Positions 2,874 to 27,431 of a DNA stretch of 27,431 nucleotides are shown piece by piece. Numbering within the stretch: the stretch's first letter is position 1; every line of letters starts with the position of its first letter. The stretch lies in IMG/VR virus record IMGVR_UViG_3300034642_000337, positions 1-27,431 of that record, one strand, 5' to 3'. This DNA comes from a virus. A model generated the notes under the pieces. It was not told the origin of the DNA, made no database searches, and was given only the letters and a program-made list of their open reading frames with translations. The translations under genes were made by a program, and so were the position numbers.

Positions 2874-3210
2874 GAAGTTTCATTTCATCGGCAAGGCTTT
2901 TGATGTCCTCAGCCGAAAGGGGTTTGTTATTTTCGGGCGAGGCCATGCCTTGCCCGTATGGATTAAAATCAAGCGCCGACTTTGCCGATTGACCTTTGCC
3001 TTTGTTGATGTTAAATAACATGGCCATGACAGCGCCGGTGTGATTCCATTGTGTACGGTCGGCCTCCAACGTCCCGTTCCTGAAACATGAGAACTCATAA
3101 AAAGTCATGTCCCAAAATTCAGCGGGTCGCAACCCCAAGCGAAGACCCGACGCGTACAAGGTGCGCCACGTTGGGGGCGGTCCGGGTTTTATTCCCGAAC
3201 CGCCTCCACG
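2863..3210 (-). CDS. Tail assembly chaperone extension (T part of G-T fusion, made by -1 frameshift)
   Basis: This frame is open from the slip site at 3210-3216 to the stop at 2863. It would be read as the C-terminal 115 residues of a 225-residue G-T fusion (110 residues from the upstream frame plus 115). It contains PTWRTLYASGLRLG followed by RPAEFWDMTFYEF, which resembles the rcc01693/Phage_TAC_6 type of tail chaperone. There is no ATG at its beginning; the first internal start candidate is a TTG at 3159. Translation by frameshifting is therefore more likely than independent initiation. The fusion is expected to bind the tape measure protein and tail tube subunits during tail assembly, as lambda gpGT does. 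It overlaps the tape measure start by 11 nt. Confidence 0.85.
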   Translation of the reverse strand, partial: RGGGSGIKPGPPPTWRTLYASGLRLGLRPAEFWDMTFYEFSCFRNGTLEADRTQWNHTGAVMAMLFNINKGKGQSAKSALDFNPYGQGMASPENNKPLSAEDIKSLADEMKLHGR

Positions 3211-6082: not shown

Positions 6083-7456
6083 TTAGACGGTCGTGGGTGC
6101 GGTATCGACTTTCAAACCGCCCAGCAAAGCGCCTGAACCATTGCGACGAATCTTCCCGTCAAAGTAGGCGTCGGCCACGATGCGAACGACACCCTTCAAG
6201 CCTTCCGTGTAAGGGTCGATGGACACCGAAATGCCCGCCCAAGAACACATGAAAATGTCACTTGCGTCGGCCATGATAATGGGCGACACGGCAATTGTGT
6301 CATTTGCGTCGGAATCGCCGAAGTACGTGGCGCTCAACTTCGTGATGTCAGACAAAACGGTTGTCGCGTACGCGGGATGGCCCAACACGGTAGATGCACC
6401 ACCGGTGATGTTGCCCGAAGCGGGAATGAAACCGCCCCCGTCGGCCGTCTGACCCTTCAAGAATGCCATCAATCCGGGCGTCATCAAAAACACCGGACGC
6501 AGGTTGTCGGGGTTGCCTTCGAGGTACTTGCCCTCAAGCCCTGCGAGGTCGGCGAAATTGGTGGCCTTTGCGTTGGTCGCGAAGCGTCCTTGAGCGATGC
6601 GCGAAGCGCCGTCCAAGTCGGTCACGATTCCGTTCAAAATATGGTCATCCATCTTCGAAGCGAGGGACGCGCCAAGGTCACGGCTAAACAAGTCGTCAAG
6701 GTTGCCGTTCACGGAATACATGAGATTCTTCGACACGTCAACGGCACACGCCACGCGGGTCGGCTTCAACGTCTTACGGCTGAAAGCGGTCGTTCCAACG
6801 GCCACCGGGTCGGCTTCCGTGTTGTCGGTCGCGTTGCCCCCTGAAAGGCTGGCGGAATTGCCGGGCATAACGGGCAAGTCAACGTCGCCGGCAAAGCCTG
6901 ACAACTGTGAAACACCTGCATTTGCCAAAACGCTCTTGGCTTGCAACGACATGGCGATTTCGCTTTGCTGAACTTGAACACCGCTTGACGTGGTGTGAAT
7001 GTTTGAAGCGCCGGCGTCCACACCGTACGCGGTACGTTCGCCGTAAGCCAACCACGAAGGAATATTAAAATCCCCGCGGACGGAAATGCCACATTCCAAC
7101 GCCTCGCGACGTGCTTCCGCATCCATTTCCGCGGTCACGCCTTCCAACTTGTGGGCCATTGCACCCTTCAAGCCTTCCGTGATGCTGAAACGCTTGGCCA
7201 ACTTTTGACGCTCGTTTGTTTCACCGCTTCCGGTGGCAAAGTCAACGGGTTGTGCCGTAGCTTTCAAAGCCGATTCCACTTTTTCGGCGCGCTCAATTTG
7301 TGCGTCGAGTTTGTCGATTTCGGTCAAAATGTCTTCAGACCTTTGAACTTCGTCTTCGGTGAATTCACGGCCTTCCGTTTCAGCCGTCTTCACCATTTCA
7401 TCCAAGGCGGACACGCGTTCGCCCCGGACTTCTTGCAATTGTTTCGCGTTCTTCAT
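6083..7456 (-). CDS. Major capsid protein (HK97 fold) with N-terminal delta/scaffold domain
   Basis: This 457-residue protein has the two-part layout of HK97-type capsid proteins. Residues 1 to about 65 are a charged coiled coil, the delta domain that acts as scaffold and is removed by the prohead protease. The shell domain follows from about residue 120, with SGVQVQQSEIAMSLQAKSVL (N-arm), LPVMPG, ISVSIDPYTEGLKGVVRIVA and DAYFDGKIRRNGSGALLGGL near the end. The C-terminal 'v.V.aea.fD..v..p.A...l' pattern is typical. The start overlaps the protease stop by 4 nt (ATGA). A strong terminator follows directly. Confidence 0.95.
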   Translation of the reverse strand: MKNAKQLQEVRGERVSALDEMVKTAETEGREFTEDEVQRSEDILTEIDKLDAQIERAEKVESALKATAQPVDFATGSGETNERQKLAKRFSITEGLKGAMAHKLEGVTAEMDAEARREALECGISVRGDFNIPSWLAYGERTAYGVDAGASNIHTTSSGVQVQQSEIAMSLQAKSVLANAGVSQLSGFAGDVDLPVMPGNSASLSGGNATDNTEADPVAVGTTAFSRKTLKPTRVACAVDVSKNLMYSVNGNLDDLFSRDLGASLASKMDDHILNGIVTDLDGASRIAQGRFATNAKATNFADLAGLEGKYLEGNPDNLRPVFLMTPGLMAFLKGQTADGGGFIPASGNITGGASTVLGHPAYATTVLSDITKLSATYFGDSDANDTIAVSPIIMADASDIFMCSWAGISVSIDPYTEGLKGVVRIVADAYFDGKIRRNGSGALLGGLKVDTAPTTV

Positions 7457-12545: not shown

Positions 12546-12944
12546 TCATTCTAGCCCTTCATGTTCGTCTTCGCTAATCACGCCGGGTTCCCTGTACAGT
12601 CCGACAATCTTCAAAACGGCGCGCGACAAAGCCCGCTTTTCAGCCATGGCGAAAGGGTACTTCGTGCGGTTGTTTTGTGGCGATGCTTCGCCGTAGGTCT
12701 CGACGCGGTACGTCACGCCATCACGCTCGACGGTCGCCTTTGCTTTGATAACAACGAAGCCGGGGTTTTCGGACACGACTTCAAAGGTCACTTCGACGCC
12801 GTGGTTCGCTTGTATTTTTTCAATGCCTGTTCGCGTAATGATTGCGAATTGAGACGAAACAAAGGTGTCGTTTGGCGTCAATCCGTTTTCGACGAACAGC
12901 GCATTCAATCGAGCGCGTTCGTCTTTGCTCAATTGTTTCTTCAT
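12546..12944 (-). CDS. ERF/Rad52-like single-strand annealing protein (putative)
   Basis: The 132-residue protein starts at ATG 12944 in a 4-nt ATGA overlap with the previous stop. The centre reads VTFEVVSENPGFVVIKAKAT, followed by YGEASPQNN and YPFAMAEKRALSRAVLKIVG, then an acidic tail GVISEDEHEG. The 'GEAs..n......~A.TkA~~RA~~~~~Gl' pattern is the hallmark of ERF and related phage annealing proteins that pair complementary single strands in recombination. It is shorter than typical ERF proteins (about 200 residues). It is the only clear recombination function besides the VRR-NUC nuclease. The alternative is an uncharacterised Bacteroidota phage family sharing the same motif. Confidence 0.65.
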   Translation of the reverse strand: MKKQLSKDERARLNALFVENGLTPNDTFVSSQFAIITRTGIEKIQANHGVEVTFEVVSENPGFVVIKAKATVERDGVTYRVETYGEASPQNNRTKYPFAMAEKRALSRAVLKIVGLYREPGVISEDEHEGLE

Positions 12945-13738: not shown

Positions 13739-13927
13739 TCACTTAATCCAACGGAAAGCCTTTGATGCGTCGGCGCTGTGCATTTCGTATTTACGCCATG
13801 CTTCCGCGCGTTCTTCGGCCGTTTCTGCATGAAAAGCCAAGTGCAGGAATCCACGTGCTTTTCCCTCTTCGATTTGGGTCTTCGACTTCTTGAAAAGTGT
13901 TGGGCGGGTGTTGCTTGCGTTGTTCAT
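13739..13927 (-). CDS. Small hypothetical protein, first gene of its operon
   Basis: This 62-residue basic/charged protein begins MNNASNTRPTLFKKSKTQ and contains HAETAEERAEAWRKYE. It is the first gene after a Bacteroidota-type promoter and carries the shared A-rich leader directly before its ATG. The promoter position suggests it may be among the first products of the unit that ends with the capsid gene. No family is recognised. Confidence 0.7.
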   Translation of the reverse strand: MNNASNTRPTLFKKSKTQIEEGKARGFLHLAFHAETAEERAEAWRKYEMHSADASKAFRWIK

Positions 13928-13989
13928 GACTGTGTGTTTTTGTGTTTGTTTGATGGTGTAAAGATATGCACGGAATCCACACGACCAAA
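13928..13989 (-). promoter_or_regulatory. Promoter D and 5' leader (Bacteroidota-type)
   Basis: A -33 TTTG (13986-13989), 19-nt spacer and -7 TATCTTTA (13959-13966) match TTTG-N19-TAnnTTTG except for the last base. The leader ATCAAACAAACACAAAAAC runs up to the ATG at 13927. It drives the unit from 13927 to the capsid gene. Confidence 0.8.
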
Positions 13990-14008
13990 CTTTTCAGCAA
14001 CTTTTTTC

Positions 14009-14040
14009 AAAAAAAAACGACCCCAACGTTTTGGGGCCGT
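14009..14040 (-). terminator. Intrinsic terminator of the small-gene unit
   Basis: A 10-bp stem (ACGGCCCCAA at 14031-14040 with TTGGGGTCGT at 14017-14026, one G-T wobble, loop AACG) is followed by a run of T residues on the minus strand. About 30 nt upstream a second hairpin (GGCGGG/CCCGCC, 14071-14093) lies without a T tract. This ends the unit before promoter D. Confidence 0.92.
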
Positions 14041-14123
14041 CCTTGGCCGGGCCTTTGCCATATATCAAACGGCGGGACACACTACAACCCGCCAGCCCTA
14101 TGAATGAAAAAAAGTTGTCCCCT

Positions 14124-14375
14124 TCACGGGTCGTTCACGAACCGAACAACCGCATCGCCCGCCGACCTCAACGACGGCATAACGGCGAAGCGCGTTCGCA
14201 TTCCTGACAAATATCGGTCAACGGCAAACGACTTGCAACCGTTCACGTCGCGCGGTGTTTCCTTAATTGTCCACACCGCGCCCTCGTGTTCGCATTGCCA
14301 AACGACGGACGTCCTGCGACGCGATGGCGGACCGACGAGAATCTTTCTTTTGGTCCAGTTCAATTCTTGGTTCAT
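14124..14375 (-). CDS. Hypothetical protein
   Basis: This 83-residue protein starts at ATG 14375, overlapping the previous stop by 4 nt. It contains RKILVGPPSRRRTSVVWQCE and the short strand AVWTIKETPRDV; many basic residues suggest nucleic acid contact, but nothing is proven. It is the last gene before the terminator at 14009-14040. I do not recognise it. Confidence 0.65.
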   Translation of the reverse strand: MNQELNWTKRKILVGPPSRRRTSVVWQCEHEGAVWTIKETPRDVNGCKSFAVDRYLSGMRTRFAVMPSLRSAGDAVVRFVNDP

Positions 14376-14566
14376 CGCTTTGCGTATTTAGTTACGATTT
14401 CGTTCCAACAAACAACGAGGCGGGCAAGGTCTTCGTTTGCCATCGGCCGACGAAAAGACCGGTAAATTGTCCACACCTGTTCGTGATGTCGAAGGGACAT
14501 TTCCGAACGAACGGAAGGCGTCAACGGTAGGCAATCGCCGTGGGGTTGGATGGGTGTTGGTCTCAT
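14372..14566 (-). CDS. Small hypothetical protein
   Basis: This 64-residue protein starts at ATG 14566, overlapping the upstream stop by 4 nt and the downstream start by 4 nt. Its C-terminal half (MANEDLARLVVCWNEIVTKY) looks helical. The overlapping chain of starts and stops is the main reason to call it. No family is recognised. Confidence 0.6.
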   Translation of the reverse strand: MRPTPIQPHGDCLPLTPSVRSEMSLRHHEQVWTIYRSFRRPMANEDLARLVVCWNEIVTKYAKR

Positions 14567-14955
14567 TGGTTCGTGCTTATTTGGTCTGCAAATGTCAATT
14601 CACCTTCGTAAAAATGCCGGCGACGACGACAATTATATTCCCTATATTTCAAATATTCAATTTCCGCGATGGGTGTCCAGTTTTCGTAATGACGAAACAA
14701 CGTTGGATGTTTTTTGATGTCTTCGGAATCAAACAATCCGGAAAATTTCCCGCATGGACTGACCATTGAAATTTTGACAAACACCTTCAAACGTGGTTCG
14801 GTCCATCCGTTTGAATCCGTCACGGTCACAAAACCGGGTGTTCGCGAAACGATTTTGTGCGTCGTGCTTTTGTGGTGTTCCGTCAATTGGTTTTCGTCGT
14901 AGCCTTGGATGTTTTGCGCGTATTTGCGCCCGACTTCAAATTGTATTCGTTGCAT
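14563..14955 (-). CDS. Hypothetical protein
   Basis: This 130-residue protein starts at ATG 14955, directly after a copy of the shared A-rich leader; the start is set by that leader. It begins MQRIQFEVGRKYAQNIQGYD and is beta-rich, with KIVSRTPGFVTVTDSNG and HYENWTPIAEIEYLKYRE. The 'k..V..RT.gfVtv..~~g' outline is reminiscent of small phage proteins carrying one beta-barrel-like domain, but no function can be given. Confidence 0.7.
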   Translation of the reverse strand: MQRIQFEVGRKYAQNIQGYDENQLTEHHKSTTHKIVSRTPGFVTVTDSNGWTEPRLKVFVKISMVSPCGKFSGLFDSEDIKKHPTLFRHYENWTPIAEIEYLKYREYNCRRRRHFYEGELTFADQISTNQ

Positions 14956-14978
14956 AGTGTGTTTTTGTTTGTTTGATG
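14956..14978 (-). promoter_or_regulatory. Shared A-rich translation leader (internal copy)
   Basis: The sequence ATCAAACAAACAAAAACAC ends just before the ATG at 14955. It is nearly the same as the leaders after promoters A, B and D, but no promoter precedes it. It probably serves translation initiation of an internal operon gene. Confidence 0.7.
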
Positions 14979-14986
14979 GTTGGGCC

Positions 14987-15223
14987 TCAGATGCCCCAAT
15001 CGGCACGGTTGAAGCTGTACTTCATCCAGCTGGTAAAATGGCGCTTCAGTTCGGAGGACGTGCGCAAAAAGGGTTCGAGGTCGTCGAGGTCTTCTTGTGA
15101 GGCGTACCCCGTCAGCTTCCATTGGTTATCATATGGGCATTGTTCCAAGGTGAAAATTACTCCGTCCACTTTGTACATGTATTCCCATGAGTAACGCTTT
15201 GGGAGGTTGATGACTTTATTCAT
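14987..15223 (-). CDS. Hypothetical protein, first gene of its operon
   Basis: This 78-residue protein begins MNKVINLPKRYSWEYMYKVD and includes VIFTLEQCPYDNQWKLTGYA and SSELKRHFTSWMKYSFNRAD. It is rich in aromatic residues. It follows promoter B and the shared leader. No family is recognised; its position as first gene of a unit of four small unknown genes suggests an early host-interaction role (inference). Confidence 0.7.
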   Translation of the reverse strand: MNKVINLPKRYSWEYMYKVDGVIFTLEQCPYDNQWKLTGYASQEDLDDLEPFLRTSSELKRHFTSWMKYSFNRADWGI

Positions 15224-15282
15224 GACGTGTTTTTTTGTTTGTTTGATGTCTCAAAGATACGCACACTTTTCACACTTCCAAA
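15224..15282 (-). promoter_or_regulatory. Promoter B and 5' leader (Bacteroidota-type)
   Basis: A -33 TTTG (15279-15282), 19-nt spacer and -7 TATCTTTG (15252-15259) fit TTTG-N19-TAnnTTTG exactly. The leader ATCAAACAAACAAAAAAAC runs to the ATG at 15223. The spacer GAAGTGTGAAAAGTGTGCG is closely shared with promoter C. Confidence 0.88.
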
Positions 15283-15291
15283 CTTTTGGGC

Positions 15292-15321
15292 AAAAAAAAT
15301 TCGAGAAACTATGACCCGAAT
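15292..15321 (-). terminator. Terminator after the terminase unit (moderate)
   Basis: A 7-bp stem (ATTCGGG at 15315-15321 with CTCGAAT at 15299-15305, one G-T wobble, 9-nt loop) is followed by about eight T residues on the minus strand. A weaker hairpin CGCCG/CGGCG (15322-15342) lies just before it. It separates the terminase unit from promoter B. Confidence 0.65.
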
Positions 15322-15365
15322 CGCCGAAACCTAGCAACGGCGCGGGTTGCAGGCACGAAAAATTT

Positions 15366-15581
15366 TCATGATTTTTTCGGCCTTCGCTTGCAAATCCACA
15401 CGAAGAACGCGTTCAACGTGGGGAATTTGAACACGCCAAAGATGTCGTCATGAATCATTTCCAGTTGGTAGTACGTCTCCGACGCCGTGTCGGTGCCGTT
15501 CAACCGGCGCTTGTATTCAGCAAAGAAGCCGTCGCGCGTGTAAATGCGACGTGCGATTTCTAGCTTCTCCCGGTCCGTCAA
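15366..15581 (-). CDS. Small hypothetical protein downstream of terminase
   Basis: This 71-residue protein starts at ATG 15581, overlapping the large terminase stop by 4 nt. It begins MTDREKLEIARRIYTRDGFF and ends FVWICKRRPKKS. It has a helical, mixed-charge outline and no known motif. It is the last gene of the terminase unit, before the terminator near 15300. Confidence 0.7.
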   Translation of the reverse strand: MTDREKLEIARRIYTRDGFFAEYKRRLNGTDTASETYYQLEMIHDDIFGVFKFPTLNAFFVWICKRRPKKS

Positions 15582-17308
15582 AGCACACGAATTGAAACGT
15601 CGTCCGGCAATTCGGGGCGCGTGTCGTCGTCGTCGAACGTCATGAATTCACCGAGGGCCATGATTGCCGAAACGATTCCGTCAACCTTGCCACCGCTTTT
15701 TTGCTTCGTCACCTTCATGTTCCCGGCCGGGTCGAAGGCCAACGCGACATTGTCCAACATCCAATCTAACACGGGGTCGTGTTTGTGCAACATCGCGCCA
15801 TCCAACACGACGCGCTCGAATTGCTTTGTCGGTGCTGACATCGAAACGAAGCCTTGTCCGAACGGCGCGCAAACGACGCCGTCGTTGACTAGGTCCGTTA
15901 TCAATTGACTCGAATTGTACCTGTCAAACGCAAGCGAACGCAACGTGAACTTGGTCGCGATGCAATCGCGGTCGAACAAAACTTTGCCGTCTTCGCCGAC
16001 GTGTTGGCCTGTGATGAATCGACGAATAAAGTCGTAATCTGTGACGTTTCCCGGCGTCACGTGGACGTTGTCGAATTCTTCTATCCGTCCATACAACGAC
16101 GACTCGTCAAGTTCAAGTTTCCGTTCAATCGCCCGTTCAGGTACGAAGTAGTGAACGCGCAAAATGAAGTCGCCCGAAGCCTGTGGGAAAAGCAACGCCA
16201 ACGCGCTGATGTCAGACACCGACGCCAAGTCAAGGCCGGCAAAACACACCGCGCCCAACTCAGGCTTCGCGTCGGACTCGTTGCCACGCCAAACGTCGCG
16301 GTCAATCCATCGACTTTGTTGGCTGACAAACTGGTTGCAATGCTTGGTCTGAAATTCCACGACCGCGCGCCCGCCGTGGTTTTGGGCTTGCTTGCATTGA
16401 CTGAACAAGAATTGTTCGCCGATGGATTCACCCAAGCCGGGGTTGGCCTTAATCCAAACGGCCGGGTCTTTCCAATCGTCGCCGTCGTCCAGTTCGTACA
16501 AAAGCGCAAGCGTTCGCGGGTCGGACTTGTCGCCGTCCAAAATCGCCTTCGCCGTCTTCATTATTTGGAACGCCGGGCCGTCAAGGTTGAACCCGGCGGT
16601 CGTGATGGCAAGCGTCAACGGGTTTTTCCGGGCGCCCTGCGACGACTTAACGACGCGCAAAATTCCGCCGTCGCGCATCCCATGGAGTTCGTCAACGATT
16701 CCAAGGTTCAAAGAAAGGCCGTCCATCGTGTTTGAATCGCTGGACAACGGTTTGCAAACGCCGTCACGCGGGGCCAAAATGTCGTGACGACGGACGCGAA
16801 AACGACGGCGCAATGTTGGGTTGGCCTCAATCATGCGACGCACTTCGTCGAATCCGATTCGCGCTTGGTCGCGCTTCGTCGCGCAAAAAACAAACTCCCC
16901 GGCCGAATCGTTGTCGAGGACCATTTGAGCGATGGCGATGGCGGACGCAAGTTGGGTTTTTCCTGACTTGCGCGCAACGTAAAGGTAGGCCGTGCGGTAC
17001 CGTCGGACGCCGTCGGCGTTGCGCCACCCGAACAGTTGGGCAACGAAAAATTGTTGCCATGGCGAAAGCAAAAAAGGACGGCCGGCCCATTCGCCCCGCG
17101 TGTGCTTGCAAAATTTTCCAATGAAGTCAATCCATTTGCGCGCCTCTACTGGGTCAAACGTCCATTCAAAATCCTCTCGCGAAAGGTCGTCAACAAAACA
17201 TTCGACCGCCCGGCGGACGTAGTGCCCGACAACTTGCCGGCCTTCCAAAACGTCGGCGACGTAAGTCGCCCAATGTTCAGGCGTCCAGGAAGCTGTCAAG
17301 TTCGTCAC
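15578..17308 (-). CDS. terL: Terminase large subunit
   Basis: This is the DNA packaging motor, an ATPase and nuclease (Terminase_1/HK97 type). I place the start at GTG 17308, giving 576 residues and a 32-nt overlap with the small subunit. The Walker A-like motif is VARKSGKT (residues 111-118) and Walker B is LGIVDELH (202-209, Asp206/Glu207). The nuclease domain begins near FAGLDLAS (Asp359), with DRYN and KVDGIVSAIMAL further on, giving the acidic residues of the RNase H-like nuclease. Flanking genes (small subunit, HNH) confirm it. A downstream TTG at codon 4 is an alternative start. Confidence 0.95.
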   Translation of the reverse strand: MTNLTASWTPEHWATYVADVLEGRQVVGHYVRRAVECFVDDLSREDFEWTFDPVEARKWIDFIGKFCKHTRGEWAGRPFLLSPWQQFFVAQLFGWRNADGVRRYRTAYLYVARKSGKTQLASAIAIAQMVLDNDSAGEFVFCATKRDQARIGFDEVRRMIEANPTLRRRFRVRRHDILAPRDGVCKPLSSDSNTMDGLSLNLGIVDELHGMRDGGILRVVKSSQGARKNPLTLAITTAGFNLDGPAFQIMKTAKAILDGDKSDPRTLALLYELDDGDDWKDPAVWIKANPGLGESIGEQFLFSQCKQAQNHGGRAVVEFQTKHCNQFVSQQSRWIDRDVWRGNESDAKPELGAVCFAGLDLASVSDISALALLFPQASGDFILRVHYFVPERAIERKLELDESSLYGRIEEFDNVHVTPGNVTDYDFIRRFITGQHVGEDGKVLFDRDCIATKFTLRSLAFDRYNSSQLITDLVNDGVVCAPFGQGFVSMSAPTKQFERVVLDGAMLHKHDPVLDWMLDNVALAFDPAGNMKVTKQKSGGKVDGIVSAIMALGEFMTFDDDDTRPELPDDVSIRVL

Positions 17309-17771
17309 CCTCGTTTTGTTTGTTTTTGGTGTTCTCGACTTGAGCCGAAGCGCCGAACAACTTCGCTCGGTCCATCGGTGACAAGCCAAGCCGGGAAGCG
17401 ATTTTCAGAATCGCGTTCTCGGCTTTGTCCTTGGCCGATTGCATCGCGGAAACGTTCGTTGTCCCGTTCTCGAATTCTTGAATCAGGTCGTCGGCCGACG
17501 TGACACGTTCGGCGATGTCACGCCACAGGGCGACGTTCTTGGCCAACATCGAAAGCAACAACGAATCAACCGTTTCCAACAACCCGCGTTCTTCTAAGAA
17601 CGAACACACCGCGTTGAAGTAGGCCCGTTCCTTCCGTGTCAACTTGCAAGCCGGGACAACCTTCGGGCGTTCTTTCTTCTTTCGTTTGGAAACCGCTTCA
17701 TCCGCGTTGTTCGTCGGGGGTTGAACGCCTCTCAAGGCCATGTTCATGATTGACTTCGCGTCGTTATTCAT
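17277..17771 (-). CDS. terS: Terminase small subunit (P27-like)
   Basis: This 164-residue protein begins MNNDAKSIMNMALRGVQPPT, then has a basic patch (KRKKKERPK) and CKLTRKERAYFNAVCSFLEE, resembling the P27 family opening 'l~~~g~~~w~~~~~~L~~~g~l'. The C-terminal AILKIASRLGLSPMDRAKL matches the 'l.~l~~~lGLsP~~R~kl' motif of P27-type small terminases. It should recognise the packaging site and load the large subunit. Ordering HNH - unknown - small - large subunit is usual for cos-packaging phages. Confidence 0.9.
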   Translation of the reverse strand: MNNDAKSIMNMALRGVQPPTNNADEAVSKRKKKERPKVVPACKLTRKERAYFNAVCSFLEERGLLETVDSLLLSMLAKNVALWRDIAERVTSADDLIQEFENGTTNVSAMQSAKDKAENAILKIASRLGLSPMDRAKLFGASAQVENTKNKQNEGDELDSFLDA

Positions 17772-17912
17772 TGACTTCCAATTAGTTACACGTCAAAACC
17801 TCCCCCGGCCCGAAATGTCGAACACTCACAGCGACCTCCACCCGTCGCGGTCTTGGTCCAAATGTCGTTGATTTTGCGCCCCCCTTACCCCTTTTGCGCG
17901 CAAAATTTTGCG
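17772..17912 (-). other. Intergenic region before terminase small subunit; candidate packaging (cos) region
   Basis: These 141 nt carry no gene. On the minus strand they begin with a perfect 14-nt palindrome CGCAAAATTTTGCG (17899-17912), then two further CGCAAAA copies around a G-rich run (GGGGTAAGGGGGG), then a small hairpin GCGAC/GTCGC (17831-17848). Position next to the terminase small subunit and an HNH gene is where cos sites are usually found. The cleavage site itself cannot be placed. Confidence 0.4.
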
Positions 17913-18182
17913 TCAATTCAAGAAAATTTCTTCAACATCGCCTTGTTGATTCTCCGCCCAGACGATGAAAGTTGCGAGGACGTCGTGCATCATATCGACG
18001 GACCAATTGGAAACGATGTCGCGCCATGTTGTGCCGGGCAAATGGTCGCACCACAACGCCACGAGTTGCCACACGGCCAGCCCTGATATATCCGCCGTGG
18101 CGACGACAACGGGGGAACGTTCGGCCAACTCAATCAGAGTTTGACGAACGTGGTTTGCCTGTTCTTCGAATTCTTGCGACAT
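17913..18182 (-). CDS. Hypothetical protein between HNH and terminase
   Basis: This 89-residue acidic protein starts at ATG 18182 (MSQEFEEQANHVRQTLIELA), overlapping the HNH gene by 53 nt. It includes GLAVWQLVALWCDHLPGTTW and ends QQGDVEEIFLN. It looks helical and has no recognised motif. Its place between two packaging genes suggests a packaging accessory role (inference only). Confidence 0.65.
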   Translation of the reverse strand: MSQEFEEQANHVRQTLIELAERSPVVVATADISGLAVWQLVALWCDHLPGTTWRDIVSNWSVDMMHDVLATFIVWAENQQGDVEEIFLN

Positions 18183-18576
18183 GATTGACCCAACCTTGCA
18201 TTGTCTCGTGGTGTATGCCACGGCGTTCAAGGCTAGATTTCACCTCGTGACACTCGTGGCAAATGGCCCAACAATTTGCAAGGTCGAACATGTCAAACTC
18301 GTTCCGATGTCGCGGGGAAATATGGTCACAATCAGTCGAGGGTGTGGTGCATCCCATGGCGTCGCATATCGGGCAAAACGGAAAGCGTTGGATGACAGCG
18401 CGACGGAATCTTTGCCAGCGTGCCGACTTCAATCGCGGTTCCGTCTCCGAGCCTGTGGGCGTGTTCTCGAAAGGGCGAACGGGCGTTGAATCTGAATGAA
18501 ACGCACGGTTCGGCTTTGTGCCTTTGACCTTGGTCTTCCATGGTCGGCGCCGGTCGTGCTTTGGTATCTCGGGCAA
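18130..18576 (-). CDS. HNH endonuclease (packaging-associated)
   Basis: The 148-residue frame begins at a TTG (18576), 10 nt after the preceding stop. It has a basic N-terminus and a zinc-containing HNH domain: CPICDAMGC, CDHISPRHRNEFDMF and CWAICHECHEVKSSLE. That is two CxxC pairs, the DH with the catalytic His, the central Asn and the CHxCH end. HNH proteins next to terminase genes are required for specific terminase cleavage in HK97-type phages. A downstream in-frame start cannot be excluded, since the first 40 residues are low in conservation signals. Confidence 0.9.
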   Translation of the reverse strand: MPEIPKHDRRRPWKTKVKGTKPNRAFHSDSTPVRPFENTPTGSETEPRLKSARWQRFRRAVIQRFPFCPICDAMGCTTPSTDCDHISPRHRNEFDMFDLANCWAICHECHEVKSSLERRGIHHETMQGWVNHVARIRRTGKPRSSNSD

Positions 18577-18586
18577 GGGTTGCTCT

Positions 18587-18739
18587 TTAGTTTGAATACA
18601 ACTTGCCCCGATTGCTTTCGGCTGACTTCGTCCGCGCTTTGGGTGCGCGTCCGATGTCGCCTGTCATCGTCCGAGACGGGTCGAAGGTAGCCCCGCCGTC
18701 GATAGAAGTCAATGTCGAAACGACAAGAGTTTTCCCCAC
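18587..18739 (-). CDS. Small basic hypothetical protein (50 residues, GTG start)
   Basis: A GTG directly after the previous TAG stop opens a 50-residue frame beginning MGKTLVVSTLTSIDGGATFD. It has a basic second half (IGRAPKARTKSAESNRGK). It fills the space between two called genes exactly, with 10 nt left before the HNH start, which is the main argument for it. An internal ATG would give 26 residues. No family is recognised. Confidence 0.5.
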   Translation of the reverse strand: MGKTLVVSTLTSIDGGATFDPSRTMTGDIGRAPKARTKSAESNRGKLYSN

Positions 18740-18925
18740 CTACGTGTTCATCGCTGGGGTCCACTCTTTGGCCAAGGGTTCCCATTCCTTCTGAAGAACC
18801 ACTTGGTCAGTTCCATTATCAAAGTAAAGGACAATCAAAGTTCCAAGGAATGCATAATGCATCACGCGAGGGCTTCGGCTTTTGATGACTTGCGCCGACT
18901 TGAGTTGTGTTGGAAGGTTGTGCAT
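18740..18925 (-). CDS. Small hypothetical protein
   Basis: This 61-residue protein starts at ATG 18925 behind a copy of the shared A-rich leader. It begins MHNLPTQLKSAQVIKSRSPR and has a hydrophobic strand (FLGTLIVLYFDNG) and QKEWEPLAKEW. It may be a small beta-strand protein and not a membrane protein. An ATG at 18949 lies in frame within the leader, but the leader match favours the start chosen. Function unknown. Confidence 0.65.
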   Translation of the reverse strand: MHNLPTQLKSAQVIKSRSPRVMHYAFLGTLIVLYFDNGTDQVVLQKEWEPLAKEWTPAMNT

Positions 18926-18947
18926 GGTGTGTTGTTTTGTGTTTGAC
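18926..18947 (-). promoter_or_regulatory. Shared A-rich translation leader (type 2)
   Basis: GTCAAACACAAAACAACACA plus CC lies directly before the ATG at 18925 and is identical to the leader at 19180-19201. No promoter precedes it. Confidence 0.7.
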
Positions 18948-18957
18948 ATGGTGCGTT

Positions 18958-19179
18958 TCATTTGTTGTTTGAACCAAAGTCTAACGTCACGCGCTTTCCA
19001 TCAGCAAACGAGACAATCGTCTGCGTCAAAAACGAATCTGCATGAATGAAGCTGGGGTACTTCGACAACGTGTGAATGTATTCGCCTGCGATGCGAGCGC
19101 GCTCGGCTTTTGTTGGACATTCAAGGTGGTCAACGCGCCCGGTAATTTCGTTGGTAATCCTGATTGTAAAAACTTTCAT
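18958..19179 (-). CDS. Small hypothetical protein
   Basis: This 73-residue protein starts at ATG 19179 after a copy of the shared leader. It begins MKVFTIRITNEITGRVDHLE, followed by CPTKAERARIAGEYIHTLSK and QTIVSFADGKRVTLDFGSNN. A beta-alpha-beta outline is suggested, with nothing diagnostic. Its leader and size match its two neighbours, making a run of three similar small genes under promoter C. Confidence 0.65.
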   Translation of the reverse strand: MKVFTIRITNEITGRVDHLECPTKAERARIAGEYIHTLSKYPSFIHADSFLTQTIVSFADGKRVTLDFGSNNK

Positions 19180-19201
19180 GGTGTGTTGTTTTGTGTTTGA
19201 C
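19180..19201 (-). promoter_or_regulatory. Shared A-rich translation leader (type 2)
   Basis: GTCAAACACAAAACAACACA plus CC immediately precedes the ATG at 19179, starting 2 nt after the upstream TAA stop. It is identical to the copy at 18926-18947. Confidence 0.7.
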
Positions 19202-19204
19202 TGA

Positions 19205-19462
19205 TTAGAACTTTTTTTCGATAGCTGTGAACAGGTCCAACGCGCGGGCTTTGAACGCTTCGACCGCTTCGGGCTTGCTCCACTTCCAACCCTCAGCCTC
19301 GTTAATGTACTGCACGCCGTCCGTGTGAGTGTATGATACCCGTACAGCCCAGTTCCAAACGGCGCCTTCCTTGGATACGCTGGCAACTACGATTCGGGCG
19401 CCTTCGGTTGCCTTGAAGTTTTCCCATTGGTGGGCGAGCTTGTCGGTGGTAACAAATTTCAT
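19205..19462 (-). CDS. Small hypothetical protein, first gene of the terminase unit
   Basis: This 85-residue protein starts at ATG 19462 behind promoter C and a type 2 leader. It begins MKFVTTDKLAHQWENFKATE and contains VWNWAVRVSYTHTDGVQYIN and WKWSKPEAVEAFKARALDLF. It is rich in tryptophan. An ATG at 19486 within the leader would add eight residues, but the same leader elsewhere lacks this ATG. No family is recognised. Confidence 0.7.
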   Translation of the reverse strand: MKFVTTDKLAHQWENFKATEGARIVVASVSKEGAVWNWAVRVSYTHTDGVQYINEAEGWKWSKPEAVEAFKARALDLFTAIEKKF

Positions 19463-19521
19463 GATGTGTTGTTTTGTGTTTGACATGGTCCAAAGATACG
19501 AACACTTTCCACACTTCCAAA
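19463..19521 (-). promoter_or_regulatory. Promoter C and 5' leader (Bacteroidota-type)
   Basis: A -33 TTTG (19518-19521), 19-nt spacer and -7 TATCTTTG (19491-19498) fit the consensus exactly. Spacer GAAGTGTGGAAAGTGTTCG is nearly the same as in promoter B. The leader GTCAAACACAAAACAACACA leads to the ATG at 19462. Confidence 0.88.
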
Positions 19522-19544
19522 CATTCGGCAAAATTTTTTTTCCG

Positions 19545-20492
19545 TCATCGTTGCAAGGGTCCGAATTCTTTGTTGAATTCGTCCCGTTCAACGAACCGGT
19601 GTTTGCTTGGTTGCCACCACAACTTGACGCGCCCCAACTTGCCCACGCCCTTCGGCTTGGTCTTTTGACAATACACCCAACATTCGCCCGGCTCGATTGC
19701 TTGGCCGTCGGGTTCGATGACAAGGCCGGCCGGCGGACGGTACACAAGCAACATCGTGAACGCGCGACGAAACCACGTTTGCCCGCCCGCCCATTCCGTG
19801 GGCAACGCATGGCCTTGATAACGCGTCCCGCAAACGCTTTTTTTGTCCGCCTGGACTTTGGCGATATGAGTCACCACGATGTCGATTCGGTTTTGTTGTG
19901 CGGACTCCCGTCGGACGTCACGCAGGGCGTCGGTCAATTGTAGGTCTTCCCTTCCGCCGTGCTTCTCCAAGTCCCGGTCAATGTCGTTCCACGGGTCGAG
20001 AACGGTCACGTCGAACGCCTCCCGTTGCGCTATTTGATGAAAGGCGTCAAGCGTGAACGGCGTGTTAGTGTTGGCCACGTCGTCGGGGTCAATGATTGCG
20101 AAGTGCTTGTTGACCCAAATCAAAGCGTCCTGAAACTGTTCGTCAGTCATGGCCCGTTCGTTTGGCAACCCGCCCGGCGTCATCTTCCGGGCGTCGGCTT
20201 GACACTTCATTTCGACAAGGTCAACAATCAGGTCGTCGGCGCCACCTTCCTCGGCCATGAACAGCAGGGACCGCCACCCATGTTTGACCGCGCAATTGAC
20301 GACCAATTGTTTCACGAATATGCTTTTGCCGTGGTGCGGTGCCCCGGCCACGAACAAGGGAAAGCCTCTCTTGAGTGTGTAGAGGCTGTCAAGGTCACGA
20401 AAGCCGGTCCCAAGGCCACGTTGGGAACCGGTTTCGCGAATCTTATTCACCGCCTCGAAGCGGTCCAACGGCTTGACGATTGGGACGTTCAT
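19545..20492 (-). CDS. RecA/DnaB-type replicative helicase (ATPase)
   Basis: This 315-residue protein has a single RecA-fold ATPase domain. Walker A is GAPHHGKS (residues 50-57), FMAEE supplies the catalytic Glu (81-82), Walker B is VTVLDPWND (162-170, Asp166) and the sensor strand VVTHIAK (206-212) occupies the place of the DnaB 'sQlnR' motif. The start GFRDLDSLYTLKRGFPLFVA resembles the beginning of DnaB/Twinkle C-terminal domains ('G~~~lD~~~gG~~~G~l~vi~G'). There is no N-terminal primase or DnaB N-domain. It probably unwinds phage DNA and is loaded with the SSB-like and DnaA-like neighbours. A RecA-like recombinase is a less likely alternative. Confidence 0.85.
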   Translation of the reverse strand: MNVPIVKPLDRFEAVNKIRETGSQRGLGTGFRDLDSLYTLKRGFPLFVAGAPHHGKSIFVKQLVVNCAVKHGWRSLLFMAEEGGADDLIVDLVEMKCQADARKMTPGGLPNERAMTDEQFQDALIWVNKHFAIIDPDDVANTNTPFTLDAFHQIAQREAFDVTVLDPWNDIDRDLEKHGGREDLQLTDALRDVRRESAQQNRIDIVVTHIAKVQADKKSVCGTRYQGHALPTEWAGGQTWFRRAFTMLLVYRPPAGLVIEPDGQAIEPGECWVYCQKTKPKGVGKLGRVKLWWQPSKHRFVERDEFNKEFGPLQR

Positions 20493-20824
20493 CCGAAGGG
20501 GTTGGTGCTTGTGGTGTTCGTTTGTCCAAATGGGGCGTCATTTGAAGCGTTTTGAGCGCCTCCCGACCCTTGGCCTTGGTTCATGTTCTTTTGGCCTCCT
20601 GTGGCCTCCCATGCCTTCGCGTTGCCCAAGATAGGCACGTCATCGGGTCGGCTTTCTTGCGGAATGTCCTGTTTGACGACGTAATCGTTTCCAAACTCGT
20701 TGTCTGGCGTGTTGAACAACACGAGGTTAAGGTACTTGCCCTTGGCACCGTTGTACAGGTGTTCCGTCAAGATTTTGTTCACGTCAACGCGAATGGTCAA
20801 ACGCTTGGGGATTGGTTGGTTCAT
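20489..20824 (-). CDS. Putative single-stranded DNA-binding protein
   Basis: This 111-residue protein starts at ATG 20824 (ATGA overlap with the previous stop). The N-terminal 65 residues are beta-rich: KRLTIRVDVNKI, KGKYLNLVLFNTPDNEFGND and YVVKQDIPQES, then PILGNAKAWE. The rest is Gly/Asn/Gln-rich and disordered, ending in TTSTNPFG. This beta domain plus flexible tail ending near 'PF' is the layout of SSBs, and I recall similar proteins in flavobacterial phages. The tail lacks the acidic DDDIPF-like residues, so the tip is not canonical. Position directly before the helicase supports the idea; the call is inference. Confidence 0.5.
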   Translation of the reverse strand: MNQPIPKRLTIRVDVNKILTEHLYNGAKGKYLNLVLFNTPDNEFGNDYVVKQDIPQESRPDDVPILGNAKAWEATGGQKNMNQGQGSGGAQNASNDAPFGQTNTTSTNPFG

Positions 20825-21273
20825 GTTTGAGGGTTTTGAGGTTTCCAAATATCGGACGCAATGTCGAAAGTCATTTGAACGATTCCGAGAGTGTCGGGGT
20901 CTTTGACCGACATCAGTTTGGGAATCGACTTGCGGGCGTGAATGACGCTTGAGTGATGGCGTCCAAAAATGCCGGCAATGGTCACGAGGGCAAGCGTCGT
21001 ATTTTCCGCAAGGAACCACATCAGCGCGTGACGCACTTGAACACGTTCACGGCGTCGGGAATCGCTCAAGAGTTCTTCGAGGGTGAACCCGTTGTGGGCG
21101 CACGTCTTCGCGATGAACATCGGCACAAGGTCCAAGCGTCGGTTGATATGGTTTCGAATCCGGTTTTCGCCGTGCTGTTCCTCGATGATGCGGTTCGCTA
21201 CTTGGCGGTGTTTCTTTGTGATTGCAAGAACCCCGTCGAGAGGTTCTTTGCAATGGGGGCAAGTGTTGGGCAT
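20821..21273 (-). CDS. DnaA domain IV-like DNA-binding protein
   Basis: This 150-residue protein has an N-terminal CPHC knuckle (Cys5/Cys8) and a basic central part. At about residues 63-120 it has FTLEELLSDSRRRERVQVRH, MWFLAENTTLALVTIAGIFG and GRHHSSVIHA (104-113). This matches the DnaA C-terminal domain that binds DnaA boxes ('~~~R~~aMYL~re~t~~Sl~~IG~~fg~RdHsTVlhA'). The ATPase domain of DnaA is absent. It may bind an origin and recruit the helicase two genes downstream, or compete with host DnaA. It starts behind a copy of the shared leader. Confidence 0.85.
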   Translation of the reverse strand: MPNTCPHCKEPLDGVLAITKKHRQVANRIIEEQHGENRIRNHINRRLDLVPMFIAKTCAHNGFTLEELLSDSRRRERVQVRHALMWFLAENTTLALVTIAGIFGRHHSSVIHARKSIPKLMSVKDPDTLGIVQMTFDIASDIWKPQNPQT

Positions 21274-21292
21274 TCGTTGTTTTGTGTTTGTC
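21274..21292 (-). promoter_or_regulatory. Shared A-rich translation leader (type 2, shortened)
   Basis: GACAAACACAAAACAACGA lies before the ATG at 21273 and overlaps the stop of the upstream gene. It is a diverged copy of the leader at 19180-19201. Confidence 0.6.
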
Positions 21293-21446
21293 AGTTTCTA
21301 CGCACACCCCATGCGGTGTACCTGATTCCGTAGAGTTTGAAAATTGTGTTGTCGATGTTCAACAAGCGTTTCCAATCGCTCTGAAAATCCGCGTCCCGGC
21401 GTTGCTTTTCTAACGCCTCTAGGGTCGGTCGTGTTATGTTGGGCAT
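21291..21446 (-). CDS. Small hypothetical protein (51 residues)
   Basis: This short frame starts at ATG 21446 and begins MPNITRPTLEALEKQRRDAD, followed by FQSDWKRLLNIDNTIFKLYG and a basic end (GVRRN). It fills the only gap between the cysteine-peptidase-like gene and the DnaA-like gene. Helical and charged; function unknown. A different frame over the same stretch is open for 84 codons, but it begins inside the upstream gene. Confidence 0.6.
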   Translation of the reverse strand: MPNITRPTLEALEKQRRDADFQSDWKRLLNIDNTIFKLYGIRYTAWGVRRN

Positions 21447-21463
21447 GATATGAATTTAGGTTG

Positions 21464-22066
21464 TCAAATTTTGCTGATTTTCCACGCCATTTCCAACCGG
21501 CGGGCCTTCTTGTTTTCGAATCCTTTCCAATCGACAAGGCAACCGTCATCAAGCACGAGCAGGTGCCTTCGAACTTCTAGAAGATACATACCGTCGCCGG
21601 CTTTCTTTTGCGCTTGTCCTACGGTTTTACCTAGTTTGACAGCTTCAACACGCCATCCGTCGCCGGCCATCGCTTTAAGCGAGGACGGGCTACACACCGT
21701 CCCGGTGAACACCCTTTGACGCCCTACGAGATTTCTCTTGTTGTACTCGCGTCGGTCGCGGGCTTCATCTTTTGACAGTTGGTAGTTGTGCTGGAAAGCG
21801 CGCGTCTGAATGACGTGGGGGTGTTGCCCGGTTGCGTAGGCCATGGAGAATATCACGCAACAACCCTGATTCCGGTACGTGCGACCTTGGGTCTCTTTGA
21901 TAATCCCCACGCCATGCCTTTGGTTCATGACTTGTCGCATGTCGCGGAATGTTTCGCGGACCGGTTCAAAGCGTTCGAAACCAATTTGACGACGAACGCC
22001 GTTGACCATTTGGAACGTGTACACGTCGCGCGCGCCTGTCCCGTCGGTGAATGTTTGTTGAATCAT
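21464..22066 (-). CDS. Putative papain/C39-like cysteine peptidase
   Basis: This 200-residue protein has RNQGCCVIFSMAYATGQ at residues 65-81 and, near the C-terminus, GMYLLEVRRHLLVLDDGCLV with His168 and Asp179 (VDWKG). A Cys on a helix start, then much later a His in 'v.~HllvldDG...D' is the pattern of papain-like/C39-type cysteine peptidases and of a phage family I recall with 'NC..RAla.AtG' and 'GHa.av.dG'. Here the nucleophile would be Cys69 or Cys70. The substrate is unknown. It starts at ATG 22066 behind a copy of the shared leader and a UUCG hairpin. Confidence 0.55.
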   Translation of the reverse strand: MIQQTFTDGTGARDVYTFQMVNGVRRQIGFERFEPVRETFRDMRQVMNQRHGVGIIKETQGRTYRNQGCCVIFSMAYATGQHPHVIQTRAFQHNYQLSKDEARDRREYNKRNLVGRQRVFTGTVCSPSSLKAMAGDGWRVEAVKLGKTVGQAQKKAGDGMYLLEVRRHLLVLDDGCLVDWKGFENKKARRLEMAWKISKI

Positions 22067-22087
22067 TGTGTTTTTGTTTGTTTGATG
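22067..22087 (-). promoter_or_regulatory. Shared A-rich translation leader (type 1)
   Basis: ATCAAACAAACAAAAACACA directly precedes the ATG at 22066. It has no promoter of its own but follows the strong hairpin at 22090-22107. Confidence 0.7.
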
Positions 22088-22089
22088 AA

Positions 22090-22107
22090 GGGGGGCCGAA
22101 GCCCCCC
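22090..22107 (-). promoter_or_regulatory. Very stable UUCG-capped hairpin between two genes
   Basis: GGGGGGC-TTCG-GCCCCCC forms a 7-bp all-GC stem with a UUCG tetraloop on the minus strand, 15 nt past the upstream stop. It is followed by TTCATCAAAC and not a T tract, so it is not a standard terminator. It may partially stop transcription or protect the upstream mRNA end. Confidence 0.75.
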
Positions 22108-22122
22108 GGTTGATGTCCTGTT

Positions 22123-22461
22123 TTAAGCCTTGCTTGCCTTACGCATTATCAATTCGGCCTTGAGCAGTTCGGGGACGTCGTAGTACAAGTCGTACTTGTC
22201 GGAACGCTCCAACCGTCCGCGAAGTTCGTTCGTGCTCATCATGCTGTAGAGGTATGCTACTACCTTGAAGTTCATCTTGAAGGGCCATCGGTTGTCATAG
22301 GTCTTTGTTGCGCCTCGCTTTATCAACTCGGCTTCAATCAGTTCGGTGACGTCGTACTTGTCGGGACGTTCCAACCGTTCGCGAAGTTCGTTCGTGCTCT
22401 TGATGCTGTAGTGGCACGCTACTGTCCTGAGGTTTTGTTTGAGGTTTTCTCCGTTGTTCAT
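22123..22461 (-). CDS. Hypothetical protein with internal tandem duplication, first gene of its operon
   Basis: This 112-residue protein consists of two copies of one domain of about 45 residues. Copy 1 (about residues 9-53) has STNELRERLERPDKYDVTEL and IEAELIKRGATK. Copy 2 (about 63-111) has STNELRGRLERSDKYDLYYD and LLKAELIMRKASK. Copy 2 carries a four-residue insertion after DKYD. The duplication is also clear at DNA level, so it is recent. The gene is the first one after promoter A and the shared leader. Function unknown. Confidence 0.75.
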   Translation of the reverse strand: MNNGENLKQNLRTVACHYSIKSTNELRERLERPDKYDVTELIEAELIKRGATKTYDNRWPFKMNFKVVAYLYSMMSTNELRGRLERSDKYDLYYDVPELLKAELIMRKASKA

Positions 22462-22522
22462 GGTGTGGGTTTTTGTTTGTTTGATGTCCCAAAGATAGGC
22501 ACACAATCAACAAACCGCCAAA
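22462..22522 (-). promoter_or_regulatory. Promoter A and 5' leader (Bacteroidota-type)
   Basis: A -33 TTTG (22519-22522), 21-nt spacer and -7 TATCTTTG (22490-22497) fit the Bacteroidota consensus. The leader ATCAAACAAACAAAAACCC runs to the ATG at 22461. It drives the replication gene unit. Confidence 0.85.
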
Positions 22523-22531
22523 CATTCAGGC

Positions 22532-22562
22532 AAAAAAAATTGACTTTTTTTCAGAAAGTCAA
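22532..22562 (-). terminator. Intrinsic terminator at the end of the tail/lysis unit
   Basis: TTGACTTT and AAAGTCAA pair as an 8-bp stem (22540-22562) and are followed by eight T residues (22532-22539) on the minus strand. It separates the VRR-NUC gene from promoter A, which begins 10 nt further on. The 46 nt between it and the VRR-NUC stop hold no gene. Confidence 0.88.
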
Positions 22563-27282: not shown

Positions 27283-27431
27283 TCAGATGATTGCTGTTCG
27301 TGACAATTTACGTTCGGACCGCTTCGAAGACAAAAGGAGGTCATCACCCAAAACGCGCGCGCTGAATTCAGGACTTTGACCGGCGCCGGCCATTTCCAAG
27401 AATTGTCCCATGCGCTCGAAAGGCACGACGA
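27283..27431 (-). CDS. Tape measure protein, C-terminal end (continuation across the junction)
   Basis: The frame entering from the right edge is the same frame that leaves the left edge. Beyond the overlap it adds GQFLEMAGAGQSPEFSARVL and a basic end (KRSERKLSRTAII), stopping at TGA 27283-27285. Bases 27410-27431 duplicate 1-22, so on the circle the gene runs 2873 to 1 and then 27409 to 27283, 3000 nt or 999 residues. The tail hub ATG follows 4 nt later. Confidence 0.93.
   Translation of the reverse strand, partial: VVPFERMGQFLEMAGAGQSPEFSARVLGDDLLLSSKRSERKLSRTAII
27410..27431. repeat. Terminal redundancy of a circular assembly (right copy)
   Basis: Identical to bases 1-22. See the left copy. 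Confidence 0.95.

Follow-up and report, generated by a model that had tools for sequence, protein, structure and literature searches.

The window analysed here is the whole 27,431-nucleotide (nt) stretch of a single virus record, IMGVR_UViG_3300034642_000337, in which nine genes are each directly preceded by a short, A-rich leader. We propose, with a probability of about 0.7, that this leader is the 3' half of a portable, phage-specific expression-and-exchange cassette. In the proposed mechanism, a host-type sigma-ABfr promoter, TTTG...TATCTTTG, would lie upstream of the leader, with a terminator-like hairpin before it in nearly half of the cassettes examined. The mRNA would begin with a G-free, unstructured A/C leader of ~20–26 nt, then AUG, and the leader would serve as a ribosome entry site without a Shine-Dalgarno (SD) sequence, both after promoters and inside operons. 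Because the same ~60–75 bp recurs at several places within a genome and across many phages, we propose that it doubles as a seam, at which a phage would keep its promoter and the initial ~15 nt of the leader but gain the last ~10 nt and a new small gene from elsewhere; a gene joined there would be expressed at once. A first-pass annotation had read the leader as a portable translation-initiation element; this interpretation is partly supported, and the role of leaders as junctions had escaped it.

Homology between relatives mostly ends at the start codon behind leaders

Phage genomes are mosaic. We located joints by pairwise comparison of 184 sequences (after dropping 32 near-duplicates), with homology anchored 300 nt upstream of a start, and counted a junction when homology ended within –20 to +40 of the ATG. 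Homology ended there in 143 of 199 comparisons at leader starts (72%), versus 45/586 and 77/790 comparisons (8–10%) at leaderless, size-matched starts and 135/1387 for large genes. Where leader and promoter were both present, the count was 135 of 163. The window and loci retrieved by helicase homology, for which the leader pattern was not used, gave 20 of 23. Breakpoints counted in the window alone (six at nine leader starts vs four at 16 other starts) were too few, and the pairwise test was used instead. One start that this test flagged as a leader, that of the major capsid protein at 7456, was rejected: it is a coding overlap containing a G.

The window starts show the pattern individually (related loci carry L numbers). 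At 13927, L181 is 97–100% identical up to the ATG and then continues into an unrelated 150-amino-acid (aa) gene; at 15223, homology with L181 and L059 stops at the ATG; and at 22461, L006 is ~94% identical upstream and unrelated after the ATG. Homology at 19462 stops at the ATG with L007, L047, L051 and L060 and inside the cassette with L118, and the upstream DNA is common to four relatives with a different gene in each. Such near-identical leaders before unrelated genes are best explained if the leaders are gene-replacement junctions.

Upon inspection of 70 orthologous pairs, leader identity in successive 5-nt steps from the TCAAAC motif was 1.00 (partly forced, as pairs were selected on this motif), 0.95, 0.85, 0.63 and 0.57. 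Promoter identity was near 0.7–0.8, and identity past the ATG was ~0.3. Only 17 of the 70 pairs had identical leaders, despite many promoters being 96–100% identical. Because identity falls along the leader in this manner, its first ~15 nt appear to stay with the promoter, and its last ~10 nt appear to tend to travel with the incoming gene.

Nine leaders in the window

All nine leaders were found at the starts where they had been claimed, on the minus strand and directly 5' of the start codons; five are type 1 and four are type 2, the last type-2 copy (21273) being degenerate.

13928-13953, minus: type-1 leader TCAAACAAACACAAAAACACACAGTC, before the 13927 gene (62 aa); promoter TATCTTTA directly upstream
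14956-14976, minus: type-1 leader, internal, TCAAACAAACAAAAACACACT, before the 14955 gene (130 aa); no promoter; starts 10 nt past the upstream stop
15224-15246, minus: type-1 leader TCAAACAAACAAAAAAACACGTC, before the 15223 gene (78 aa); promoter TATCTTTG upstream
18926-18946, minus: type-2 leader, internal, TCAAACACAAAACAACACACC, before the 18925 gene (61 aa); in-frame ATG 24 nt 5' of the gene ATG
19180-19200, minus: type-2 leader, internal, TCAAACACAAAACAACACACC, before the 19179 gene (73 aa); starts 4 nt past the upstream stop
19463-19483, minus: type-2 leader TCAAACACAAAACAACACATC, before the 19462 gene (85 aa); promoter TATCTTTG; in-frame ATG at the predicted +1
21274-21289, minus: degenerate type-2 leader, internal, (TG)ACAAACACAAAACAACGA, before the 21273 gene (150 aa, DnaA-C-like)
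22067-22085, minus: type-1 leader, internal, TCAAACAAACAAAAACACA, before the 22066 gene (200 aa); hairpin CGGGGGGCTTCGGCCCCCC directly 5'
22462-22484, minus: type-1 leader TCAAACAAACAAAAACCCACACC, before the 22461 gene (112 aa); promoter TATCTTTG

Allowing up to three mismatches, the type-1 18-mer matched the window eight times (shuffles: mean 0.13, largest 2) and the type-2 18-mer seven times (shuffles: mean 0.19, largest 2). The two patterns cross-match, and all matches are on the minus strand, each immediately 5' of one of the nine starts. The leader matched no known RNA family.

The 20-mers quoted in the first-pass annotation proved to be consensus forms and not identical copies, judged by the exact sequences up to the ATG. 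Likewise, the leaders are nearly rather than strictly without G, which occurs near the ATG at 13927, 15223 and 21273 only; as claimed, they cannot pair with the anti-SD sequence. Leaders do occur with and without promoters: TAnnTTT(G/A) lies directly 5' of 13927, 15223, 19462 and 22461 only, and the other five leaders are in operons, where they start no more than ~16 nt past the preceding stop, except at 22066, whose leader sits right after a strong hairpin. The leader is portable in that it is present at internal genes as well as behind promoters. To call the nine genes small was loose, given the 200 aa encoded by 22066 and the 150-aa DnaA-C-like protein of 21273. The leader is indeed absent from structural genes, in part because of gene packing, since most leaderless genes overlap their upstream neighbour; a spacer of at least 17 nt precedes 9/9 leader genes vs 9/32 other genes (Fisher p = 1.4 × 10–4).

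Promoter module and predicted transcription start

Together with their promoters, the four promoter-linked leaders of the window form a 76-nt repeat family, D1. The modules and the hairpin at 22066 are as follows.

13954-14000, minus: promoter module TTTGG...TATCTTTA, upstream of the 13927 leader; repeat family D1
15247-15294, minus: promoter module, upstream of the 15223 leader; repeat family D1
19484-19533, minus: promoter module, upstream of the 19462 leader; repeat family D1
22485-22532, minus: promoter module, upstream of the 22461 leader; repeat family D1
22089-22107, minus: hairpin CGGGGGGCTTCGGCCCCCC, between the 22461 gene and the internal 22066 leader; fold –16.7 kcal/mol

The sigma-ABfr promoter consensus is TTTG/TAnnTTTG, and transcription in Flavobacterium johnsoniae starts 4–5 nt after the –7 element (PMC6847099). 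Of 81 distinct promoter-leader sites, 76 have 5 or 6 nt separating TTTG from TCAAAC, and 40 have a distance of 23 nt between TCAAAC and the ATG; leaders at the analysed sites are 15–26 nt long. Given the F. johnsoniae spacing, transcription is predicted to begin 0–1 nt before TCAAAC.

A terminator-like hairpin lies upstream of 54/118 cassettes vs 9/118 on the antisense strand, and is thus not universal. Leaders in contact with hairpins are also present in L059, L181 and L063. On the L181 reverse strand, the A-rich leader of the gene at 2869 contains the hairpin GGGAGGGGGCAACCCCTCCC, and AAAAACACAC remains before the ATG. Immediately 5' of a leader in L059 stands a terminator that has a T run. 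A generic promoter and terminator scan of the window was uninformative, with terminators no commoner than in shuffles.

An ATG falls at the predicted +1 in eight promoter-linked type-2 sites.

+1-ATG sites: window 19462-19486, minus; L008:8583; L009:8826 and 10994; L059:1303 and 2848; L006:11453; L203:32 (coordinates in relatives are those of the –7 element, in coding orientation)

All five of the type-2 sites that have a second nearby ATG have it 24 nt downstream and in frame (MSNTKQHxM). In L006, L059:2848 and L203, the +1 ATG is the sole nearby start, and the leader there appears to have become coding. A further type-2 promoter copy, L010:8530, has ATA in place of the +1 ATG.

Translation initiation

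Bacteroidota ribosomes initiate without SD pairing; in F. johnsoniae, A at –3, –6, –12 and –13 together with low structure increases translation, and the –12/–13 region is thought to face S1 (PMC6847099). The nine window leaders have A at –12 in 8/9, at –13 in 8/9, at –3 in 6/9 and at –6 in 2/9. Consistent with the earlier claim that the leader is unstructured, the mean minimum free energy of the start region is –0.8 kcal/mol for leader genes vs –7.1 kcal/mol for other genes (p = 2 × 10–5). Because these ribosomes do without SD pairing, and the leader has A at –12/–13 and does not fold, we propose from its sequence that it probably acts as a ready-made ribosome entry site. As the leader itself would be the entry site, it could also function before internal operon genes.

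Distribution in phages and in host genomes

The 18-base leader followed by ATG was found in 21 viral stretches vs 0 for the reversed pattern, and the promoter-leader-ATG combination recurs in 97. An open reading frame of at least 40 codons follows at 74 of the 81 distinct promoter-leader sites, and the cassette loci sort into 18 groups that share no extended DNA similarity, with a G+C content of 29 to 56%. By contrast, the cassette was at chance level (six hits vs four controls) in 396 genomes of the phylum Bacteroidota, to which Mesonia belongs; the first-pass proposal to look in highly expressed host genes thus gave a negative for the exact sequence in these genomes. The promoter-leader cassette, widespread in viral stretches and only at chance level here, is therefore a phage-specific element. 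A host origin of the leader was considered and rejected: exact leader plus ATG had six matches in all genome contigs, none promoter-linked, and one in the 396 phylum genomes. The short pattern TCAAACAAACAAAAC...ATG, present in 54 viral stretches, was mostly chance (promoter at 6/51 sites analysed) and was not used as evidence.

Promoterless sense copies just before an ATG are also present in L008, L014, L059 and L061. Absence from close relatives, which was to count against the element, holds for single copies, such as that of the 21273 gene, whose orthologue in L006 (99% aa identity) is without a leader; it does not hold for the element. The claim that leaders are not just transcription start regions is borne out by the five internal window copies but is incomplete: in other phages, the exact sequence is almost always tied to the promoter and the predicted transcription start.

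Slots and exchanged genes

Homology breaks delimit three slots in the window.

18734-19460, minus: slot A, exchangeable genes 19462, 19179 and 18925; L118, L007 and L010 homology ends at 18734 and 19460-19492
21279-22457, minus: slot B, exchangeable genes 22461, 22066 and 21446; leaders at both ends; L118 block ends at 21279 and 22457
14562-15216, minus: slot C, exchangeable genes 15223 and 14955; L181 blocks end at 14561 and 15216

The slot genes differ in every relative, and one gene family (L007:1252, L059:1576 and L181:2869; 72–83% aa identity) is found in different slots behind different leaders. The 138 genes behind leaders make up 88 families with a median of 70 aa, and a domain scan of 84 representatives of their products gave very few matches. 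Slot A of the closest relative (L006:11667-12329) encodes a DNA methyltransferase (N6_N4_Mtase, E value 1 × 10–17), possibly an accessory counter-defence gene. On the L181 reverse strand, the gene at 3148, an orthologue of the 14566 gene, starts inside the leader-like sequence TCTAAACAAACAA ATG AACACACACAAACC, and its N-terminus is altered to MNTHKPTP. Part of the 22461 gene (22123-22461) is duplicated in tandem within the gene (107 nt, 79%, 162 nt apart).

Genome record and likely host

An exact 22-nt direct repeat is common to both record ends (1-22 and 27410-27431), and L006 homology blocks join positions 27431 and 1 as neighbours; the 27.4-kb record, though listed without completeness, is therefore probably a complete, circularly closed assembly. 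Nearly all genes are on the minus strand. They encode large and small terminases (TerL family), a portal, a protease/major head protein, a DnaB-like helicase, a DnaA-C-like protein and a VRR-NUC nuclease, along with many small products without matches. Since the nearest named relatives of the helicase are from Flavobacterium and Riemerella phages, and the promoters have the form TTTG/TAnnTTTG, the phage probably infects a bacterium of the phylum Bacteroidota. A DNA search of the phage collection gave no match to a named close phage, and the cassette had only weak matches there, mostly to Bacteroides phages across the promoter half.

Alternative explanations

Several points weigh against the proposed cassette. 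Outside the clade of the window, internal copies that lack a promoter are uncommon, so that in most phages a promoter or start-site function could account for conservation of the exact sequence. Several internal leaders in the related L061 and L062 retain the A/C composition only, hence the exact 20-mer is unnecessary for translation. In the junction test, the compared pairs are not fully independent, as loci share ancestry, and a 'promoter without leader' control probably holds chance TAnnTTTG matches, for which reason the size-matched controls are better. Homology loss at the ATG could also result from illegitimate recombination followed by selection for working junctions. Lastly, the candidate recombinase is a doubtful one: the 132-aa protein at 12546-12944 (minus strand), with a conserved KYPFAMAEKRAxxRxxLK, matches RecT weakly (E value 0.0013, below Pfam's cut-off), and its Erf signal is also weak. 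Its structural model is a confident alpha-beta-beta-beta-alpha arrangement (predicted local distance difference test score 87); a fold search gave no significant match, with no RecT, Redbeta or Rad52 among the 50 matches listed. The protein is possibly a compact annealing protein.

Illegitimate recombination, the alternative to which we give a sizeable minority chance, would strike anywhere, with selection of the joints that preserve promoter and leader, and the leader would be no recombination substrate. Mosaic phages often have joints that are exact to the gene, the searches turned up no clear recombinase, and the seam lies where function demands. Nevertheless, leader 3' ends differ from one incoming gene to the next, whereas the 5' half and promoter persist; both donor and recipient have the cassette, which a crossover inside a repeat would predict; and slot B is edged by leaders on both sides. 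It is unlikely that the element works at the level of transcription, with TCAAAC as an initially transcribed sequence or a phage-regulator operator needed with the promoter. Such a role would fit the fixed 5–6 nt between TCAAAC and the –7 element and the fact that, in most phages, the exact leader occurs only together with the promoter; it fits poorly with the five promoterless window copies and those in L008, L014, L059 and L061, which are always sense and just before an ATG.

We consider it rather improbable that these are ordinary Bacteroidota starts, alike through selection for A-rich, unfolded composition, with an incidental swap pattern. The A-12/A-13 preference and low structure do follow the grammar of the phylum, A at –12 is also frequent in leaderless window genes (0.52), and the L061/L062 leaders keep composition rather than sequence. 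However, composition alone does not predict the homology end at the ATG, and this reading is at odds with near-identical 18-mers far above chance, the 21 vs 0 result for a composition-matched reversed pattern, and the 97 promoter-linked viral copies against chance level in hosts. Rather improbable too, in our view, is that type-2 leaders are coding, with transcription starting on the AUG and a leaderless mRNA giving an N-terminal MSNT... tag. The eight +1 ATGs, the 24-nt in-frame spacing in 5/5, the three sites where the +1 ATG is the only near start, and the F. johnsoniae start position (PMC6847099) all favour it, but an ATG is missing from that position in type 1 and in the internal type-2 copies 19179 and L008:8842, and the frame is not kept across leaders that vary from 15 to 26 nt. 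Within the expression-and-exchange cassette that we prefer, we hold a more specific version only tentatively: a dedicated plug-in site, common to many Bacteroidota phages, with a fixed promoter and half-leader, at which crossover within the leader would swap small, mostly unknown genes, every newcomer supplying the second half-leader and being translated at once without an SD sequence, and whose type-2 seam might be read either as an untranslated region or as an N-terminal tag from a first-base AUG.

Relation to known systems and implications

T4-type PeSLs (promoter early stem-loop cassettes), attributed to Arbiol 2010 and Comeau 2014, are described as repeated early promoter and stem-loop cassettes, reported to shuffle neighbouring genes between related phages (PMC4503421). 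Our element is similar in being a repeated, promoter-bearing cassette (the 76-nt repeat at four sites, here with a host-type promoter) and in the shuffling of neighbouring genes, seen here as homology ending at the ATG. The PeSL cassette includes a stem-loop, whereas fewer than half of ours have the hairpin. A PeSL is reportedly a promoter-terminator unit; our seam instead falls within a 5' leader, next to the ATG, and operons also contain this leader on its own. Unlike T4-type myoviruses, the phage studied here has a small, 27.4-kb genome with protease/major head, portal and TerL families, Bacteroidota-type promoters and a helicase nearest to those of Flavobacterium and Riemerella phages.

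The SAS/ESAS (start-associated and extended start-associated sequences) of cluster K mycobacteriophages comprise a 13-bp GGGATAGGAGCCC with the SD core AGGAG and lie a few nt from the starts of non-structural genes of varied families, mostly in one orientation; they are absent or rare in the host, and about half have an upstream inverted repeat (PMC3203893). Both are start-linked repeats of non-structural genes, in one orientation and not in the host (here judged from a phylum sample). Unlike SAS/ESAS, our leader is nearly G-free, has no SD core and is usually promoter-tied; it is also a replacement junction, which SAS are not described as in the available part of that source. The SD-free initiation regions of Bacteroidota are similarly A-rich and unfolded, with A at –12/–13 and often –3 and a sigma-ABfr promoter upstream, but hosts share composition and not a fixed sequence (PMC6847099), and the exact cassette is at chance in the sampled genomes. 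Collectively, our analysis suggests that the cassette resembles T4 PeSLs and SAS/ESAS in kind, yet differs from each in sequence and is a member of neither. We found no earlier description of it in the open literature, where most subscription journals are missing.

One can seldom see in phage genomes how an incoming gene comes to be expressed or why joints sit so neatly between genes; here, one short sequence appears to be both joint and translation start. The leader offers a sequence tag with which small, exchangeable phage genes, as yet unknown, could be gathered from metagenomes in their hundreds, and the tagged genes are, by analogy only, candidates for host takeover or counter-defence. 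The leaders also suggest compact expression parts for Bacteroidota, where SD sites fail.

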